The notes beneath the pieces are model-generated. The model was not told where the DNA came from. It saw only the letters and a program-made list of their open reading frames with translations, and did not search any database. From IMG/VR virus record IMGVR_UViG_3300036785_000649, positions 1 through 25,819 of that record: a DNA stretch of 25,819 bases; one strand, written 5' to 3'. This DNA is from a virus. Below are positions 1 through 8,247 of this stretch, piece by piece. Position numbers and translations under genes: made by a program. Numbering within the stretch: the stretch's first letter is position 1; each line of letters opens with the position of its first letter.

Positions 1-60
1 CCGCTCGATCTCCGCGTCAAGCTTGGAGATGGCAGTGGTGATAATGCTGGTGGAATCCAT
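1..60 (-). CDS. Small early protein, N-terminal 20 residues (partial)
   Basis: The gene starts at position 60 on the minus strand and runs off the left edge; only 20 codons are visible. They read as a Met followed by an Ile/Thr-rich helix and a Lys-Leu-Asp-Ala-Glu-Ile-Glu-Arg stretch. The start of the protein at 3180-3764 (MSAITIIAAIDAINVEIK) has a similar pattern, as does the N-terminal helix of the 4270-4575 protein. This suggests a third member of the same coiled-coil plus helix-turn-helix family, but the C-terminal part is outside the window so this is inference. An AAGGAGG-type ribosome-binding site lies about 9 nt upstream. The hammerhead element at 107-175 separates it from the gene before it. 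Confidence 0.7.
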   Translation of the reverse strand, partial: MDSTSIITTAISKLDAEIER

Positions 61-106
61 TGAAGATTCCCTCCTTGTGTTTGAGTGTGAGTATGTAGTA
101 CTCGGT

Positions 107-175
107 TGACTATGCTCTTCAGCGACCGGTCGTCACTCGGTCGGACGTTACCCTTTGATGGGTAACGTTTCGCTA
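107..175 (-). ncRNA. Type II hammerhead ribozyme HHR1
   Basis: Read on the minus strand: GC (173-172), GAAA (171-168), stem III of 8 bp plus the A-U closing pair (146-153 with 160-167), GUC (146-144), stem I of 6 bp (123-128 with 138-143), CUGAAGA (122-116), GC (115-114). The core is complete; position 7 is A instead of U, which the family allows. Predicted cleavage lies between 144 and 143. Stem II is short (2 GC pairs, then weak pairing). The stem I loop has UGACG, and GUCA at 110-107 could pair with its UGAC. The UAG stop of the upstream gene (175-173) overlaps the first stem II base. Confidence 0.88.
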
Positions 176-394
176 GTGTCGTTTCGATTCAGGGTGTGAC
201 TCGTGGTACGTAGCAAGCGCTAGGCCTGACCGTGCAGCGATGCGGAGTTCCGGGCCACCAAAGCCCAGTTCACCACATCCCTTCCACAAGTCACAGTCCC
301 ATTCGTCGAACATGCCATGGTTGAGGTATCCAAGTACCTCTTCTGCCAACATGTCATCGTTCGACATGGCAGTCAGAATCTCAATGGCATTCAA
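173..394 (-). CDS. Hypothetical small acidic protein (73 aa)
   Basis: I do not recognise the family. The 73-residue protein has an acidic helical N-terminus (about residues 1-25), a Trp/Cys segment (DEWDCDLWKGCG) in the middle and a His-rich tail. I chose the TTG start at 394: AAGGAGU lies 6 nt upstream, the same spacing seen for neighbouring genes, and no ATG in this frame fits the ribosome-binding site. The gene sits between HHR2 (upstream) and HHR1 (downstream), so its mRNA is predicted to be a one-gene unit. Its UAG overlaps the stem II strand of HHR1. Confidence 0.72.
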   Translation of the reverse strand: MNAIEILTAMSNDDMLAEEVLGYLNHGMFDEWDCDLWKGCGELGFGGPELRIAARSGLALATYHESHPESKRH

Positions 395-418
395 TGGGTT
401 ACTCCTTGAGTGTGAGTT

Positions 419-492
419 TGACTATGCTCATCAGCAAGTGAACGTCACTTCACTTGGACGTCCACAAACCAATGGCTGTGAACGTTTCGCAT
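419..492 (-). ncRNA. Type II hammerhead ribozyme HHR2
   Basis: Minus strand order: AUGC (492-489), GAAA (488-485), stem III of about 10 bp with two G-U wobbles (458-467 with 476-485), GUC (459-457), stem I of 8 perfect bp (435-442 with 449-456) with loop GUGACG, CUGAUGA (434-428), GCAU (427-424). Stem II is 4 bp (AUGC with GCAU). GUCA at 422-419 can pair with UGAC in the stem I loop. Predicted cleavage lies between 457 and 456. The UAA of the upstream gene (494-492) abuts the element. Confidence 0.9.
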
Positions 493-947
493 TACGGAAT
501 GAGTACTTCGAAGGCCTTTTCGATCAGCCGTCGCCGATGGGACAAGTAGTCCAGTGTGGCAACAGCGTCGCCCTTTTTGGGACTGCCATCAGGCGCTTCA
601 TCGTAGTACTTCATGGTTCGGTTAGTGTGGGCACTAACGCGGTCCATGTCACCTTGCCAGGCACCGAGCATCTCATCGGTGGACAAGTCAGTGACCAACT
701 CGATCTCGGTGATCGGGATGATGGACGGGCGGTCATGGCCAATGAAGGCCACTCTGTGCGACTTGCCAGTGGTCGGTTCCGTCTTACCCATAGGGGTGCG
801 ACGGTGATCGTCCACATCCAGTACTGTACCGAGCTTACCTATGGTCTTGTAATAACCACAAGCACTCGGACGGGACTGGCACAAGCTGCACTTCTCTGTG
901 TCGTGAGTGCACCTTACGGTGTCACCCACTGAAAACACAGGGGTCAT
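492..947 (-). CDS. Hypothetical SH3-like protein with Cys cluster (151 aa)
   Basis: The N-terminus (FSVGDTVRC) looks like the first strand of a small SH3/KOW-like barrel. Four cysteines at residues 13, 20, 23 and 30 could bind a metal ion within or next to it. The rest is mixed alpha/beta with a basic C-terminal helix. No enzyme motif is visible and I do not know the function. The ATG at 947 has AAGGAGU 5 nt upstream. The gene lies between HHR3 (upstream) and HHR2 (downstream). Metal binding and nucleic-acid contact are inference. Confidence 0.8.
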   Translation of the reverse strand: MTPVFSVGDTVRCTHDTEKCSLCQSRPSACGYYKTIGKLGTVLDVDDHRRTPMGKTEPTTGKSHRVAFIGHDRPSIIPITEIELVTDLSTDEMLGAWQGDMDRVSAHTNRTMKYYDEAPDGSPKKGDAVATLDYLSHRRRLIEKAFEVLIP

Positions 948-975
948 AGGTTACTCCTTGTTGTGAGTGTGAGTG

Positions 976-1042
976 TGACTATGCTCTTCAGTACCGATTC
1001 GTCACATCGGTAGACGTGCCACAATCAAGTGACACGTTTCGC
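976..1042 (-). ncRNA. Type II hammerhead ribozyme HHR3
   Basis: Minus strand order: GC (1042-1041), GAAA (1040-1037), stem III of about 9 bp with one U-G wobble (1014-1022 with 1029-1037), GUC (1015-1013), stem I of 7 perfect bp (992-998 with 1006-1012) with loop GUGACGA, CUGAAGA (991-985), GC (984-983). GUCAC at 979-975 is complementary to GUGAC in the stem I loop (5 bp). Predicted cleavage lies between 1013 and 1012. Stem II shows only the 2 GC pairs plus weak extension. The upstream UAA (1046-1044) is one base away. Confidence 0.9.
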
Positions 1043-1043
1043 T

Positions 1044-1640
1044 TTATACCCAGCAGTGGCAAGGTTCGGGACCACCACACGCCATGCAAGGCACGTACTG
1101 CTCGGAGTCAATCTGCTCCTGTCCACCGCTCTTCAACCAGTCCTGCTCCTCATGATCCCATCGGGCCATTTCGGTTTCCAACTTCATGACACGTAGGTCC
1201 TCTACGAACCGGCAAGGACCACAGATCATGAGGTCGTCCCAGTTCCAGGGCTCGATGCCACCGATGTTGATTAGGCGCACGTCGAACCGGTACATGTCGC
1301 AGACGTCACACATGGTCAGCACGTCACCGCGAGTGTGACTGTAGTCACGCACGCTGTCACTTGCTAGGACCAGGTCATCTGCCTCGACACTGGGCTCAGT
1401 GAACCAGGACGCAGTCTCGAATGGGAAGGTGCCGAATCGCTCGGTACCGTACGGCCACATCACCACCACATAGGGTGGAATGTCGATGTGCTGCAACGTG
1501 TCGTCGTCCACATCGCCGTCCCAATCGGTTATGTCCACGATGATGCCACAAGGCATGGGAACGTCCTGGTACTCCGTATTGACTACGGCACCAACGAACA
1601 GGTCCTGGCCCTTGGCATCGATCACCTTGGGGTAGGTCAT
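1044..1640 (-). CDS. Cys-rich, zinc-ribbon-like hypothetical protein (198 aa)
   Basis: The open frame continues upstream to 1832, but that part crosses the ribozyme and leader of HHR4. The ATG at 1640, with AAGGAGU just upstream, is the real start (MTYPKVIDAKGQ). The N-terminal third (about residues 5-60) looks like a small beta-barrel. A CDVC pair and an ICGPC pair further on form a likely zinc ribbon, and a second Cys cluster (CMACGGPEPCHC) ends the protein. It may bind nucleic acid or another protein, but this is inference. It lies between HHR4 and HHR3. Confidence 0.82.
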   Translation of the reverse strand: MTYPKVIDAKGQDLFVGAVVNTEYQDVPMPCGIIVDITDWDGDVDDDTLQHIDIPPYVVVMWPYGTERFGTFPFETASWFTEPSVEADDLVLASDSVRDYSHTRGDVLTMCDVCDMYRFDVRLINIGGIEPWNWDDLMICGPCRFVEDLRVMKLETEMARWDHEEQDWLKSGGQEQIDSEQYVPCMACGGPEPCHCWV

Positions 1641-1667
1641 TAGGTTACTCCTTGTGTGAGTGTAAGT

Positions 1668-1734
1668 TGACATATGCTCATCAGTGTACGTTCTGTCACG
1701 ACGTACAGACGGCACCGAAGTGCCGTTTCGCTTA
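1668..1734 (-). ncRNA. Type II hammerhead ribozyme HHR4
   Basis: Minus strand order: UAAGC (1734-1730), GAAA (1729-1726), stem III of 7 bp with a CGAA-type tetraloop on the plus strand (UUCG on the RNA), GUC (1710-1708), stem I of 7 bp (1685-1691 with 1701-1707) with loop CGUGACAGA, CUGAUGA (1684-1678), GCAUA (1677-1673). Stem II is 2 GC pairs, an A-A mismatch and two A-U pairs. The next five bases, UGUCA (1672-1668), are complementary to UGACA in the stem I loop; in this copy both sides differ from the UGACG/AGUCA form. Predicted cleavage lies between 1708 and 1707. Confidence 0.92.
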
Positions 1735-1869
1735 CAATGACTGGACCTTCTTGTTGCACCGTTCGCAAATGGGAACCTCTCCCAGGATCGGATGCTTGCG
1801 AGTGGTTGTGGCAGGATTAGTGCACAAAGCAAACCACTGGCAAATTACCGTGTCCCAAATGGCGCGCAT
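1732..1869 (-). CDS. Small zinc-finger protein (45 aa)
   Basis: The ATG at 1869 overlaps the UAA of the preceding gene (TAATG), so translation is probably coupled. The 45-residue product has C10, C16, H26, C35 and C38 in a pattern ending VPICERC. Small zinc-finger proteins of the CxNPA...HPxLGxVPxCxRC type are common in actinobacteriophages. Metal binding by C16, H26, C35 and C38 is likely; its target is unknown. The UAA at 1734-1732 touches HHR4 directly, so the ribosome ending here would cover the ribozyme's 5' strand. Confidence 0.78.
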   Translation of the reverse strand: MRAIWDTVICQWFALCTNPATTTRKHPILGEVPICERCNKKVQSL

Positions 1870-2111
1870 TACAGTACCCTCAGGATGCCATCTTGCTGAA
1901 CGGGAGTGGGACCGGACAAGTCATCGAATTCGATGACGTAGTCCACATCACCAGGTGACAACACGGCATCGGGTGCCATGTCATCGTTGAACTCCTGCAC
2001 AATGGCAGCGAATTCAGGACTGGTGTTGTCGTTGTGCGTGATGGTACCGTTGCCACCGCTCAGGTCCTCGTAGTAGACACGAGTCCCAATCGGCAAGGGA
2101 TGGGTAATCAC
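1869..2111 (-). CDS. Hypothetical acidic SH3-like protein (80 aa)
   Basis: The start is GTG at 2111, with AAGGAGU 6 nt upstream; no in-frame ATG fits. The N-terminus (PIGTRVYYEDLSGGNGTI) reads like the first strands of a small SH3/KOW-like barrel. The remainder is acidic (many Asp and Glu). No catalytic motif is seen and the function is unknown. It shares a TAATG overlap with the 45-residue zinc-finger gene downstream, so the two form a two-gene unit between HHR5 and HHR4. Confidence 0.75.
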   Translation of the reverse strand: MITHPLPIGTRVYYEDLSGGNGTITHNDNTSPEFAAIVQEFNDDMAPDAVLSPGDVDYVIEFDDLSGPTPVQQDGILRVL

Positions 2112-2313
2112 TATGTAACTCCTTGTGAGTGTGAGTGTTGACTATGCTCATCAGTGACCGGTCGTCAGTTGGCCAGACGGTACCGAAGTACCGTTTCGCT
2201 ATAGCAGTCCAATCAGGAAGTGGACGGGGAATCATCTCGATGTGGTGAACGCACACGATGACAGTATGCAACCAGTGGGCAGCGTTGGTGAGTGCCAAGT
2301 GAATGGTCCTCAT
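2014..2313 (-). CDS. Open frame with no stop before HHR5; doubtful small gene
   Basis: The ATG at 2313 overlaps the TGA of the preceding gene (ATGA), as expected for a coupled gene. The frame is not closed before the ribozyme: it passes through HHR5, its leader and most of the next gene, ending at 2014. Only the first 46 codons lie upstream of the predicted cleavage site, which falls exactly on a codon boundary. The first 40 residues contain His/Trp-rich segments and look like a plausible small protein; the rest is probably accidental. A UAG in another frame (2201-2199) sits where other genes place their stop, so a frameshift or sequencing error is possible. I do not recognise a family. Confidence 0.4.
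   Translation of the reverse strand: MRTIHLALTNAAHWLHTVIVCVHHIEMIPRPLPDWTAIAKRYFGTVWPTDDRSLMSIVNTHTHKELHSDYPSLADWDSCLLRGPERWQRYHHAQRQHQS
2139..2204 (-). ncRNA. Type II hammerhead ribozyme HHR5
   Basis: Minus strand order: CUAUAGC (2204-2198), GAAA (2197-2194), stem III of 7 bp with a UUCG loop, GUC (2178-2176), stem I of 5 bp including one G-U (2155-2159 with 2171-2175) with a loop holding CUGACGACC, CUGAUGA (2154-2148), GCAUAG (2147-2142). Stem II pairs CUAU-(A)-GC with GCAUAG with one bulged A. GUCA (2142-2139) can pair with UGAC in the loop. Predicted cleavage lies between 2176 and 2175. Confidence 0.9.
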
Positions 2314-2489
2314 GCCGCTGCCACCGTCACCGTGATCTCATCGGGAGTACCGATCTCGGCGTGCAGTTCCTTGCTGATGTAAAGGGTACGAATGTAAGGT
2401 GACTCATCGTCCCCAACCAGCTCGGTGAACCGCACGCAGTTCTTGGTTTCCTTTTCTATGGTGAAGGGAATTTCCACTGCGTTGTACAT
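2310..2489 (-). CDS. Hypothetical small beta-rich protein (59 aa)
   Basis: The start is the ATG at 2489, right after an AAGGAGU and the conserved leader of HHR6; the longer frame upstream crosses the ribozyme and is rejected. The 59-residue protein alternates charged and hydrophobic residues as in a small antiparallel sheet (KNCVRFTEL, IRTLYISKEL, EITVTVAA). Small phage proteins with a similar TLYI-K-L pattern are common but have no known function. Its TGA overlaps the ATG at 2313. Confidence 0.8.
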   Translation of the reverse strand: MYNAVEIPFTIEKETKNCVRFTELVGDDESPYIRTLYISKELHAEIGTPDEITVTVAAA

Positions 2490-2515
2490 GGTTACTCCTT
2501 GAGTGTGAGTGTAAG

Positions 2516-2582
2516 TTGACAGGCTCATCAGTACCGACATGTCAAGTCGGTAGACGGGACATTCACTGCCCCGTTTCGCCTG
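2516..2582 (-). ncRNA. Type II hammerhead ribozyme HHR6, with a stop codon in its stem III loop
   Basis: Minus strand order: CAGGC (2582-2578), GAAA (2577-2574), stem III of 8 bp (2554-2561 with 2567-2574; one G-U) with loop GUGAA, GUC (2555-2553), stem I of 7 perfect bp (2532-2538 with 2546-2552) with loop UUGACAU, CUGAUGA (2531-2525), GCCUG (2524-2520). Stem II can form 5 bp and differs in sequence from the other copies. UGUCAA (2521-2516) is fully complementary to UUGACA of the loop. Its first two bases are shared with the outer stem II pairs, so the two helices compete. Predicted cleavage lies between 2553 and 2552. The upstream gene ends at UGA 2565-2563, inside the stem III loop. Confidence 0.93.
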
Positions 2583-3093
2583 AGTGCAAGAACTCAGACA
2601 AGCGACCAATGACACGGTCCACTTCATCCTGCATGCCACTTTCGGCACCGTTGTAAATGAAGTCTCCCATGTACATGATCGCCTGGTCAAGCGCATCTGC
2701 CAGTGTCAAACCGTCCTTCTCCTCATTGAGGAAATGAGCGGTGACCTTTGCCAATGCCTGTTGACCCTTGCGCGTCCTAGTGGCGGTACGCTCGCGCGTT
2801 TCCACCACCGTGATCTCGTGTGCCGGTTCATTCGGTTGCCGCTTGGCACGAATGGGCCTGGTTGGGTTATTGATGAGTTGCATGTACTCACCTTTCACCC
2901 CACGAGTGGTCGGTGCCGGATCGGTGACAACACTGCGCAAACGCTGTGCCGTCTTGATACGAACCCTCCGACCAGTGGCCTCATTCTCAGCGACCCAGCC
3001 GGTAGTGGCCTTGCCGATGATTTGAACGATGACCATTGCGTTACTGACCTTGGCCTTGTAACGGCCACCGATCTTCACGTCTTTGGCGTGCAT
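2563..3093 (-). CDS. Hypothetical SH3-like protein (176 aa) ending inside HHR6
   Basis: The ATG at 3093 has AAGGAGU only 3 nt upstream. Residues 1-50 (DVKIGGRYKAKVSNAMVIV, then a WVAENEATGRRVRIK strand pair) look like a small beta-barrel module seen in many actinobacteriophage early proteins. The middle is a basic linker (TRERTATRTRKGQ) and the C-terminal 60 residues are a helical domain. The function is unknown; nucleic-acid binding is possible. The last eight codons and the UGA lie inside the ribozyme HHR6, so coding and ribozyme sequence overlap. This makes translation and ribozyme folding mutually exclusive. Confidence 0.82.
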   Translation of the reverse strand: MHAKDVKIGGRYKAKVSNAMVIVQIIGKATTGWVAENEATGRRVRIKTAQRLRSVVTDPAPTTRGVKGEYMQLINNPTRPIRAKRQPNEPAHEITVVETRERTATRTRKGQQALAKVTAHFLNEEKDGLTLADALDQAIMYMGDFIYNGAESGMQDEVDRVIGRLSEFLHSGETGQ

Positions 3094-3119
3094 GGTACTC
3101 CTTGTGTGTGAGTGTTAGT

Positions 3120-3180
3120 TGACTATGCTCATCAGTGCCACTTCGTCACAGTGACAGACGGGACCGAAGTCCCGTTTCGC
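3120..3180 (-). ncRNA. Type II hammerhead ribozyme HHR7
   Basis: Minus strand order: GC (3180-3179), GAAA (3178-3175), stem III of 7 bp with UUCG loop, GUC (3159-3157), stem I of 7 bp with one U-G (3136-3142 with 3150-3156) and loop GUGACGA, CUGAUGA (3135-3129), GC (3128-3127). GUCA at 3123-3120 can pair with UGAC in the loop. Predicted cleavage lies between 3157 and 3156. The UAG of the upstream gene (3182-3180) overlaps the first stem II base. Confidence 0.92.
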
Positions 3181-3764
3181 TAAGCGATGGAACGCTTCAC
3201 GTGGTACACGTAATTCGGCGCAATGCCGAGAGTGTCACCGATCTGCTGAGGGGACTTACCCTTGTTCAGCAGGGCGATGATCTGGTCCCGCCGAGTGACC
3301 TTGCCATTTGACTTGGCCTGCTTGGCGGCACGTGCCTTTTCGAGGTTCGCCAGGGTCTGCTTGCGCGTTTGGCCATTGCCACTTTTAGTGGACTTACGAG
3401 TGGCCTGCTTCACAGCGGACTTCACGAACGCTTCACCAGCCTCTTCGCTGTTCATCTTGCGACGCCGACGAGGACTGGGACCGTCACCGGTGGACTTGCT
3501 GGCACCCTCGATGATCGAGTCTGCCAGGTCATTCGCCAGTGTGCCCTCTTCGTCATCGACGATCTTGCCAGTGGCAATCACGGGACCCTCAGTGACCTTG
3601 ACGGGGCGAATGCGCTGACCCTTGCGGATCGGCTTCGCCTCATCAGTGGACACCAGGGTACCGAGCGTGTCACGTGCGTTGACCAGTCGGTCGATCTCGT
3701 CCTGGTGGGACTTGATCTCGACGTTGATAGCGTCGATGGCAGCGATGATGGTAATAGCGGACAT
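3180..3764 (-). CDS. Coiled-coil plus helix-turn-helix protein (194 aa)
   Basis: The ATG at 3764 follows an AAGGAGU; the longer frame to 3818 runs through HHR8's leader and is rejected. Residues 1-40 form a likely coiled coil (IDAINVEIKSHQDEIDRL). A long basic, Lys/Arg-rich middle includes PSPRRRRK. The C-terminal 38 residues form a helix-turn-helix (IIALLNKGKSPQQIGDTLGI, then YVYHVKRSIA). The protein at 4270-4575 has the same order of parts and a similar C-terminus, so the two are paralogues. A DNA-binding regulator is the best guess. Confidence 0.85.
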   Translation of the reverse strand: MSAITIIAAIDAINVEIKSHQDEIDRLVNARDTLGTLVSTDEAKPIRKGQRIRPVKVTEGPVIATGKIVDDEEGTLANDLADSIIEGASKSTGDGPSPRRRRKMNSEEAGEAFVKSAVKQATRKSTKSGNGQTRKQTLANLEKARAAKQAKSNGKVTRRDQIIALLNKGKSPQQIGDTLGIAPNYVYHVKRSIA

Positions 3765-3803
3765 GTTACTCCTTGTGTGAGTATGAGTGTTAGATTCTGA
3801 CAG

Positions 3804-3869
3804 TGACATGGTCATCATCAGCAGTGGAATGTCAATCCACTGGACGCCACTTGGTGTGGCGTTTCGACC
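3804..3869 (-). ncRNA. Type II hammerhead ribozyme HHR8 (extra U after the core)
   Basis: Minus strand order: GGUC (3869-3866), GAAA (3865-3862), stem III of 7 bp (3844-3850 with 3856-3862) with loop ACCAA, GUC (3845-3843), stem I of 7 perfect bp (3822-3828 with 3836-3842) with loop UUGACAU, CUGAUGA (3821-3815), an extra U (3814), GACC (3813-3810). Stem II is 4 bp. AUGUCA (3809-3804) begins directly after stem II and is complementary to all six bases UGACAU of the loop. Predicted cleavage lies between 3843 and 3842. Confidence 0.9.
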
Positions 3870-3872
3870 GGG

Positions 3873-4178
3873 TTAGAAATCACGCGCGTCGCTGATCAGT
3901 TCCGCCCAAGTGGCGTACTCATCGAGCAGTTCCGCGTATGAATCGGCGAACATGGCACCATCTTCCACTTCGTTGAATGCCTCTGGCATGTACGTGTGGA
4001 GGTAAGTGGACAGCTGTTCGATGTTTGACTCATCGATGAGGGGACGCTCGTTGGTACCGCTCACTGCACCAGTGGCAGGGTCAACGACGTAGTCCCACTT
4101 TCGATTGTTGCGAAGTTCACCGTACATGCCAGCAAGTGTGGCAGCGAAGGTGGCATCGGCAATGTCAACGGGGTTCAT
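3873..4178 (-). CDS. Hypothetical acidic helical protein (101 aa), paralogue of 7333-7587
   Basis: The ATG at 4178 lies 6 nt after AAGGAGU. The protein is acidic and helical. Its start (IADATFAATLAGMYGEL) and end (TYMPEAFNEV, then YAELLDEYATWAELISDARD) match the plus-strand protein at 7333-7587 (TADNAFATVMCDTYGEF; DYMPHAF; YASLIDE; FVELLEMARD). The pair is clearly related, though I know no function for the family. This copy has an insertion of about 20 residues (RKWDYVVDPATGAVSG) that the other lacks. It lies between HHR9 and HHR8. Confidence 0.83.
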   Translation of the reverse strand: MNPVDIADATFAATLAGMYGELRNNRKWDYVVDPATGAVSGTNERPLIDESNIEQLSTYLHTYMPEAFNEVEDGAMFADSYAELLDEYATWAELISDARDF

Positions 4179-4207
4179 ATGTGTACTCCTTGAGTGTGAG
4201 TGTGAAG

Positions 4208-4271
4208 TGGCAAGTCATCATCAGGCGGTGAATGCCAATCACCGCGACGCCACCGAAGTGGCGTTTCGACT
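4208..4271 (-). ncRNA. Type II hammerhead ribozyme HHR9 (extra U; compensated loop change)
   Basis: Minus strand order: AGUC (4271-4268), GAAA (4267-4264), stem III of 7 bp with UUCG loop, GUC (4248-4246), stem I of 7 perfect bp (4225-4231 with 4239-4245) with loop UUGGCAU, CUGAUGA (4224-4218), an extra U (4217), GACU (4216-4213). Stem II is 4 bp; compared with HHR8 the outer pair changes from G-C to A-U. The loop carries UGGCA instead of UGACA, and the linker carries UGCCA (4212-4208) instead of UGUCA, so pairing is kept. Predicted cleavage lies between 4246 and 4245. The UAG of the upstream gene (4272-4270) lies in stem II. Confidence 0.93.
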
Positions 4272-4575
4272 AGTCCTCGTAATCGAAGTCAGTGTCAATC
4301 TCCCACGCCGCGCGCACCTTGTACACGTAGCGGGGGTGAGTACCGAGCATCTCTGCCAGGTCCTTCGCCGACATGTCGGGATGGGACAGGATCTGCTCGG
4401 TGCGCTCGCCGTAGGCCACTTTGTTGTTGTAGTGGACCGTCGTGACGTTGCGCTTCACTGACTTGTCAGTGGCAACGGTCTTGCTGCTGACACCAACCAG
4501 TGCATTGCGCTCAGCGGTGAGCGTGGCAATGACCTGGTCGAGGTCAGCGATGTGGGACTTGGTTGCGTTAGACAT
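4270..4575 (-). CDS. Small coiled-coil plus helix-turn-helix protein (101 aa), first gene of the operon
   Basis: The ATG at 4575 follows an AAGGAGU. Residues 5-35 form a likely coiled coil (SHIADLDQVIATLTAERNAL). Residues 55-92 form a helix-turn-helix (ILSHPDMSAKDLAEMLGTHP, then RYVYKVRAAW) that resembles the C-terminus of the 3180-3764 protein. The tail is acidic (DTDFDYED). As the first gene after the likely promoter and a DNA-binding candidate, it could regulate this arm; that is inference. Its UAG lies within the stem II strand of HHR9. Confidence 0.83.
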   Translation of the reverse strand: MSNATKSHIADLDQVIATLTAERNALVGVSSKTVATDKSVKRNVTTVHYNNKVAYGERTEQILSHPDMSAKDLAEMLGTHPRYVYKVRAAWEIDTDFDYED

Positions 4576-4619
4576 TGTGTAACTCCTTGATATGAGTGTG
4601 AGTGTTAGTTGGTACTACA

Positions 4620-4676
4620 TGGCACGTTACTGTTGTGCCACGCCACATTACGGTCACGACACCGTGTGCGAGTCAA
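4620..4676 (-). promoter_or_regulatory. Candidate promoter and 5' hairpin of the left-arm operon
   Basis: On the minus strand TTGACT (4676-4671) and TAATGT (4650-4645) lie 20 nt apart, longer than the usual 17-18, so the -35 assignment is weak. A start 5-7 nt after the -10 would fall at about 4640-4638, the first base of a hairpin UGGCAC...GUGCCA (4640-4635 with 4625-4620, 9-nt loop). This hairpin lies where stem I lies in the ribozyme leaders, but no GAAA, GUC or CUGANGA core is present here. Confidence 0.4.
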
Positions 4677-5119
4677 ACGCGTTAGCGTTCACTCGTGTGG
4701 CGACAAGGAATGGAGTATGAATCACACGTGCTCAAACGGGGCACTCAAATTCCCCTCGCGTTGTGTGATTCTTTTCGCTTGCAAGTTGTGACACTGGCCA
4801 AGTAACGTGCGTTGCCGCGTTCCTTGCGATCATCGACCATCAGATCGCATATGCACCGTCCCATTTGCTTGTTTGCTTGTCTATCGTCACTGGGGCACCC
4901 CGGGAGATGTCCACGTCGTGTACCGACGCAAAGTGAATCGTGAAACCAAAGCACAATCGCTAGCGGGTAAGCACAAGGTGTGTGCCGTTACCGAGTTTTG
5001 GTCATTTGCTCGCCACCAGATTTTGATTACAGTGCAGTGTTGGGCAGCCTGCACGTGAGCGAATACACCGCATTGCGGCGCTCGTCATATTTCGCTTTCA
5101 ACCGTTCAAACGTGCCTGC

Positions 5120-5166
5120 CTCGCGTGCGCGCGTGACGTAAACGACGCGTCACGCGTGCGTGCGAG
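5120..5166 (+). repeat. 19-bp imperfect hairpin, best formed by plus-strand RNA
   Basis: Positions 5120-5138 pair with 5148-5166 around a 9-nt loop. The three departures from perfect complementarity are all G-U pairs on plus-strand RNA and would be A-C mismatches on the minus strand. This favours a role in a plus-strand transcript. No U-run follows. Confidence 0.55.
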
Positions 5167-5318
5167 GGGTCGCACGTTGTGTATGTTGGTCATCGTGACG
5201 CGCGGGACGGTGATCGCACATTGTGGTCGCATTCGCAGTTTCACACATTCGTTTGTAACGTTCGGCGTTCGCTCAACGTTACGCGTCGTGTGTGACATAC
5301 GATGACATTCACACAATG

Positions 5319-7628: not shown

Positions 7629-7680
7629 GCCACCATACCCCCTCAACTCACTTGACTTACTGGGCATTGTGCGTGATTGC

Positions 7681-8247
7681 CGGCGCGCGTCACACGTGAC
7701 GCACGTGTCACACGCGCGTCACGACGCACGCACGACGCACGCGCGCACGACGCGTCACGACACGCGCACACGACGCACACGACGCACGACGCGTCACACA
7801 CGACGCACGACGCACACGACGCGTCACACACGTGTGTGATCGCACGACGCGTCACACGTGCGTCACGACGCACGACGCGTCACACGTGACGCACACGACG
7901 CGTCATGCGTCACACGTGCGCGTCACGCGTCACACGTGACGACACGACGCGTCACGTACGTGTGTGATCACACGACGTGTCACACGTACGTCACACGTGT
8001 GTGATCGCGTGACGCATTCGACACGTGCAATCGACACGTCATCGTGTGACGCGCGTGTCACGTGAACGTGTGAACGTGTGAACGTGTGAACGTGTCAACG
8101 TGTCACACGTGTGTACGTGTCACACGTGCGTCACACATGTGTACGTGTCACGTGTGCGTCCACACACGTGTCACACGTGTGTACGTGTCACACGTGTGTC
8201 ACGCATTCACGACAATGTGGATGCGGTTTGTACGTCACGTGTCACAC
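7681..8247. repeat. Low-complexity alternating pyrimidine-purine block
   Basis: For about 0.57 kb the sequence is made almost wholly from the words CACG, ACGC, GTCAC, ACGTGTG and their complements, with long alternating pyrimidine-purine runs of CG, CA and TG steps. Many nested palindromes (CACGTG, ACGCGT, ACGTGT) occur. Open frames on all strands give Arg/His/Thr or Val/Cys/Arg polymers and are not genes. A tandem 8-bp repeat, GTGAACGT, about five copies, lies at 8062-8101. Confidence 0.85.

Follow-up and report, generated by a model that had tools for sequence, protein, structure and literature searches.

Type II hammerhead ribozymes, in which loop I pairs with the tail that follows stem II (PMC3088659), are already known from prophages. 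Perreault et al. (2011) describe clustered hammerheads that flank prophage genes and propose that they process transcripts into gene-length mRNAs; by their account, small clusters cleave in vitro, the A. tumefaciens triple array also does so in E. coli, and 14 of 18 consensus hammerheads were active in vitro (PMC3088659). The ribozyme class and the idea of transcript processing are thus both established, and a review treats the role of hammerheads in prokaryotes as an open question (PMC6155905). Here we describe nine type II hammerheads on the minus strand (positions 106-4273) of a phage sequence, IMG/VR virus record IMGVR_UViG_3300036785_000649; the complete record of 25,819 bases was analysed and is referred to below as the window. 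We believe that the nine ribozymes punctuate one polycistronic phage transcript and would cut it into RNAs of one or two genes, a reading to which the sequence analysis leads us to assign a probability of roughly 0.8.

Each element runs in the same order, from the 5' strand of stem II through GAAAC, the stem III hairpin, GUC, the stem I hairpin and CUGANGA to the 3' strand of stem II, and the GAAAC motifs begin at positions 4267, 3865, 3178, 2577, 2197, 1729, 1040, 488 and 171. In all nine copies stems I and III are closed by loops and stem II is open. The invariant core (C3U4G5A6N7G8A9, G12A13A14, A15.1-U16.1 and H17) is present in nine of nine, H17 is C throughout, and the A15.1-U16.1 and C15.2-G16.2 pairs do not vary, in agreement with a preliminary description of this DNA that had reported an intact C17, both pairs and CUGANGA in every copy. 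Its further statement that every copy reads GC-GAAAC holds for seven; the copies at 4267 and 3865 read GUC-GAAAC ... CUGAUGA-U-GAC(U/C), with a 4-bp stem II and one extra U after A9, and the pairing of this stem is shifted by one base, beyond that U. Orthologous elements of Streptomyces phages differ in whether they have the extra U (at one orthologous junction Marav, Salutena, Alvy and Puginator have it and R4 and ELB20 lack it), and because the same extra U occurs in those phages, it is unlikely to represent damage.

The Rfam hammerhead model recognizes the array in part. With RF02276 (Hammerhead_II), cmscan places three copies over the 37-bit gathering score, and a search of the whole record finds seven copies at E<=2.3e-6, four of them over the cut-off; neither search detects the two upstream UC forms. 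A covariance model made from these nine elements gives exactly nine matches in the 25.8-kb window, at E values from 4.8e-21 to 1.9e-14, and nothing else. It has no match in 86 kb of two further array-bearing sequences, G001 (IMGVR_UViG_3300017605_000570, 57 kb) and G008 (a 49-kb contig), outside their own arrays, and elsewhere it finds 127 matches in arrays of other phages and of one archaeal scaffold. Since the nine copies match their own model by construction, it is the absence of other matches in the window and the external search that are informative, and the 127 external matches are 96.3% paired, with 499 double-change cells. A descriptor scan likewise gave seven strict matches in the window versus a single match across 200 first-order Markov windows. 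The bare pattern GAAAC...CUGANGAGC is nonspecific in bacterial genomes, and as paired stems are missing in 97 of 119 stretches, its counts are not used as evidence.

Within the array, the model alignment of the nine copies is paired in 96.5% of cells (stem III 100%, stem I 95.2%, stem II 88.9%), and 11 of the 16 pairs change on both sides. The covariation score is 0.833, versus 0.183 +/- 0.041 in shuffled alignments and at most 0.115 with slid partners; none of 500 shuffles attains the observed percentage paired or the observed score. The structure guides the model alignment, which is to that extent biased in its favour, but pair types counted directly from the core outward agree. Ungapped identity among the copies is 0.94-0.95 in the core and about 0.3 in stem-loops III and I, so the copies are not a recent duplication; they must be old or independent, with pairing maintained, and the earlier observation that stems I and III diverge while staying paired is borne out.

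The loop I x 3' tail pseudoknot is likewise found in each of the nine copies, at 4-6 bp. In most copies it consists of at least UGAC x GUCA, and copy 1 carries a compensated version, UGGCA x UGCCA. Its summed length is 43, versus a maximum of 41 in 5000 shuffles; a clear excess is also present in G008 (mean 5.50 versus a null maximum of 4.57), and by the same crude length measure none was seen in G001 or G007. Together, the Rfam matches, covariation and pseudoknot identify all nine as type II hammerheads, as had been proposed. These data also bear on the idea that the elements are ordinary hairpins or decayed relics, hammerhead-like in form and incapable of cutting. We consider this extremely improbable: 4 of 18 consensus hammerheads were indeed inactive in the 2011 tests (PMC3088659), but nine intact cores, the pseudoknot, covariation, the exact count of nine and a negligible chance expectation all speak against it.

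The elements differ in detail. Hammerhead 1 (4206-4273, predicted cleavage 3' of C4246) and hammerhead 2 (3803-3872, 3' of C3843) are the UC forms with the extra U; the first has stem II AGUC/GACU and a 5' strand that overlaps the TAG stop codon of gene 1, and the second has stem II GGUC/GACC and the pseudoknot UGACAU x AUGUCA. Hammerhead 3 (3119-3184) is predicted to cleave 3' of C3157. Hammerhead 4 (2515-2583, 3' of C2553) has a 5-bp stem II, and hammerhead 5 (2138-2203, 3' of C2176) has the weakest stem I. These are followed by hammerhead 6 (1667-1735, 3' of C1708), hammerhead 7 (975-1046, 3' of C1013), hammerhead 8 (418-494, 3' of C457), which has a 10-bp stem III, and hammerhead 9 (106-177, 3' of C144).

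The near-universal intergenic placement that the preliminary description claimed is confirmed in a more exact form. A ribozyme in the sense orientation occupies nine of the nine non-overlapping junctions of the operon and neither of the two overlapping ones (gene 5/ORF 6 and gene 7/gene 8). In seven copies the stop codon of the upstream gene is found 1-7 nt ahead of the core; in an eighth it is the stop codon of gene 4 and lies inside stem III. In these eight it always precedes the predicted cut, and it falls within -20 to +10 nt in eight of nine. The stem II G of copies 3 and 9 is at the same time the G of the stop codon TAG (in copy 3, that of gene 3). In all eight copies that could be scored, AAGGAG lies downstream of CUGANGA and is followed by a start codon, which is 33-50 nt from CUGANGA. 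With the stop codon before the cut and AAGGAG and the start codon after it, predicted cleavage would leave each coding RNA intact. An apparent conflict, in which gene 4 reads into hammerhead 4, was ruled out, as the gene 4 stop codon precedes the predicted cut.

In the mechanism we favour, each hammerhead would fold during transcription, just past the upstream stop codon, and cut itself 3' of GUC, ahead of the Shine-Dalgarno sequence of the next gene. The front of each resulting coding RNA would carry a 5'-OH and the stem I hairpin, which the pseudoknot between loop I and the tail would hold in place. Its 3' end would fall a few bases after the stop codon, with the stem III hairpin and a terminal 2',3'-cyclic phosphate, and overlapping genes would stay together as a two-gene RNA. 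Such ends would resist 5'-monophosphate-dependent nucleases and 3' exonucleases. The purpose of cleavage may be to let each small gene of a long transcript decay and be translated independently, on RNA with nuclease-resistant ends, and the punctuation would serve where there seem to be no promoters or terminators: a scan by consensus alone found no promoter-like site and no operon-strand terminator in positions 1-5200.

The tight spacing of stop codons also invites another interpretation, in which cleavage is conditional, reports translation of the flanking genes and modulates the decay or expression of messages that are poorly translated. Folding would be prevented while a terminating ribosome sits on the GAAA strand, and an initiating ribosome on the next Shine-Dalgarno sequence could disturb the pseudoknot tail; where the stop codon is this close, cutting could follow ribosome release. 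The most frequent spacing between stop codon and core is 1-3 nt in the window, in G001 and among 135 other IMG/VR elements, 96 of which have a stop codon within -20 to +10 nt (versus 0.12 at random), the G008 pseudoknot strand continues straight into AAGGA, and Perreault et al. also allow for regulated cleavage in phages (PMC3088659). At the same time, compact phage genomes alone could yield such spacing, and in the group of Streptomyces phage R4 it is looser, with stop codons usually 4-48 nt away. On balance we regard conditional control as rather unlikely.

Several points weigh against the reading of the array as transcript punctuation. ORF 6 (start 2313) has no in-frame stop codon before 2176, and the cut would truncate it. 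Hammerhead 5, the copy at 2197, is the weakest of the nine, with a 5-bp stem I that includes a G-U pair and a competing minimum-energy fold, and the copies at 4267 and 3865 carry the extra U next to the core, which may slow their predicted cleavage. No near relative of the window phage was found in which orthologous junctions could be compared. Finally, the benefit of cleavage, in stability and independence, is conjecture, and cleavage could also lower expression.

The array does not stand alone. A pattern scan of IMG/VR returned at least 120 stretches. G001 carries 24 type II hammerheads at 9.9-17.5 kb, the longest array among the matches listed, and most of its elements lie 1-7 nt after a stop codon. 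G008, which was turned up by a tail-specific pattern and has its own array, carries 11, and five other contigs carry 6-8 each in whole-record searches. A blast search with the G001 array led to the Streptomyces phages Marav (13 hammerheads) and Salutena (12), and from these to R4 (9), ELB20 (10), Alvy (11), Sentinel (10), Omar (9) and Puginator (10), giving eight cultured Streptomyces phages with 9-13 hammerheads each. The preliminary description's view of the array as unusual is therefore not supported: clusters were published in 2011 (PMC3088659), and arrays of 6-24 elements occur in unrelated phages, cultured Streptomyces phages among them. The Salutena genome paper does not mention ribozymes, and within the open-access literature, including the text of the 2011 paper, we found no report of large hammerhead arrays.

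In six annotated Streptomyces phages, elements occupy none of 66 junctions of 20 nt or less versus 31 of 36 junctions of 60-140 nt, and 14 of 57 elements overlap an annotated coding sequence (CDS). Six of these are in R4 (NC_019414), which has nine unannotated hammerheads at 41.7-49.5 kb. Phage annotations thus hide ribozymes beneath small or extended ORFs; in R4 the CDS concerned include the tiny ORFs gp60.1, gp67.1 and gp75.1, which are apparently spurious. Orthologous elements keep the same junction across R4-like genera, and at one R4-group junction they are 100% paired with compensatory changes, among only six distinct sequences.

This distribution is also what must be weighed in asking whether the hammerheads are selfish or recombination elements, either cassettes that move from gene to gene or shared sites for gene swapping, whose cleavage is useless to the phage. 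Arrays do bracket changing, mostly unknown small genes, and single elements are common in IMG/VR. However, copies within the window array share only the core, with stems about 0.3 identical, and are too short for homologous exchange; compensatory change maintains their stems, orthologous elements hold their junctions across genera, and the window elements have neither a mobile gene nor a terminal repeat attached to them. We consider this explanation very unlikely.

Other observations concern the array-bearing sequences themselves. QMZE01000031.1, a 9.3-kb scaffold of an Archaeoglobales metagenome-assembled genome, carries about seven hammerheads, most of them nearly identical, with a 9-bp pseudoknot GCCGCCGCC x GGCGGCGGC; it perhaps derives from a virus of a hyperthermophilic archaeon. 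OCR-like antirestriction genes adjoin R4-group hammerheads in Marav (OQ995441, 43730-44143) and in R4 (45302-45832), in parallel with ardA in the published A. tumefaciens array. Phage Omar contains a fragment resembling bacterial 16S rRNA (L261 5762-5879, at 48.6-48.8 kb; RF00177, 68.4 bits, model positions 106-311), of which phage Stella has a weaker relative.

The operon that holds the array occupies positions 1-4700 of the minus strand and comprises about twelve small genes, mostly without family assignment. Gene 1 (4270-4575) encodes 101 aa with a weak helix-turn-helix (HTH)-like match, gene 2 (3873-4178) 101 aa of no family, gene 3 (3180-3764) 194 aa with a weak match to a C-terminal HTH, and gene 4 (2563-3093) 176 aa of no family. 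Gene 5 (2310-2489; 59 aa, no family) has a stop codon that overlaps the start of ORF 6 (2014-2313). The latter is a doubtful gene of 99 aa as read, which passes through hammerhead 5 into gene 7; if it is translated, predicted cleavage would give a stop-less message. Gene 7 (1869-2111; 80 aa) starts with GTG, and its stop codon overlaps the ATG of gene 8 (1732-1869; 45 aa), which belongs to phrog_15221, of unknown function. Gene 9 (1044-1640) encodes 198 aa of no family, gene 10 (492-947) 151 aa with a weak SH3-like match below the cut-off, and gene 11 (173-394) 73 aa from a TTG start. Gene 12 (1-60) is an ORF start that continues off the contig; because the contig ends within this gene, which is next after hammerhead 9, the array may continue. 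The leader of gene 1 (4576-4700) is CA-rich and has AAGGAG as in the other gene leaders, without a ribozyme, and it is likely to lie near the start of operon transcription.

Models of defence genes gave no match for eight proteins of the operon region. The plus strand of the window encodes a terminase, a portal protein, an endolysin and collagen-like tail proteins, and the phage shows distant kinship to Arthrobacter, Gordonia and Streptomyces phages. Neither megablast nor distant blastn against phages found relatives of it, nor did scans of IMG/VR with the 492-947 protein and the terminase. In the compared array phages the operon proteins have no convincing relative; the likeness to G008 consists only of low-complexity collagen-like repeats. 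Between the minus-strand and plus-strand gene blocks lies a low-complexity, CACGTGTGACGCG-like stretch of about 600 bases (7640-8240), possibly an origin or packaging region.

Regardless of its exact purpose, if transcript punctuation by these ribozymes is real, it would represent a third route, beside promoters and terminators and protein nucleases, for dividing a bacterial-type transcript into genes. More tentatively, and as a proposal that we hold to be possible and somewhat doubtful, ribozyme punctuation may be a standing mode of phage expression, in which stop-fused hammerheads replace internal promoters and terminators in an accessory operon of several phage groups, the transcript becomes a series of coding units with a hairpin on either side, and cleavage is gated by the terminating ribosome. 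The presence of arrays in cultured phages, such as R4 on S. coelicolor A3(2), makes the role of the hammerheads directly testable.

Compared with known systems, the window elements share with RF02276 the open stem II, the GAAA/CUGANGA core, C17, A15.1-U16.1 and the loop I x tail pseudoknot, and differ in the extra U that two copies carry between A9 and stem II. Gut phages also carry self-cleaving ribozymes in their genomes, the HDV-like theta ribozymes, but these have another fold and are tied to tRNA-based recoding, not to arrays among protein genes (PMC10879173). The R4-like Streptomyces phages (Arquatrovirinae) are closer, with their 9-13 sense-strand type II hammerheads in the junctions of small-gene operons, although their stem sequences differ, their stop spacing is looser, their elements are unannotated in the records consulted, and their proteins (Salutena and Marav were compared) lack convincing homology to the window operon. 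The prophage clusters of A. tumefaciens (around ardA), Azorhizobium and Clostridium scindens likewise have hammerheads flanking genes or short blocks, and the clusters of 2011 likewise place several sense-orientation elements between phage genes. However, the examples in the text of that paper are small, as with the triple array, versus nine elements in the window and up to 24 in G001, and unlike those examples the window elements fill every non-overlapping junction and abut stop codons. Measured against the open-access literature, what is new relative to 2011 is the size of the arrays, their regularity at every non-overlapping junction, their abutment to stop codons, the culturable test system that they offer and their spread, which includes the R4-like phages.

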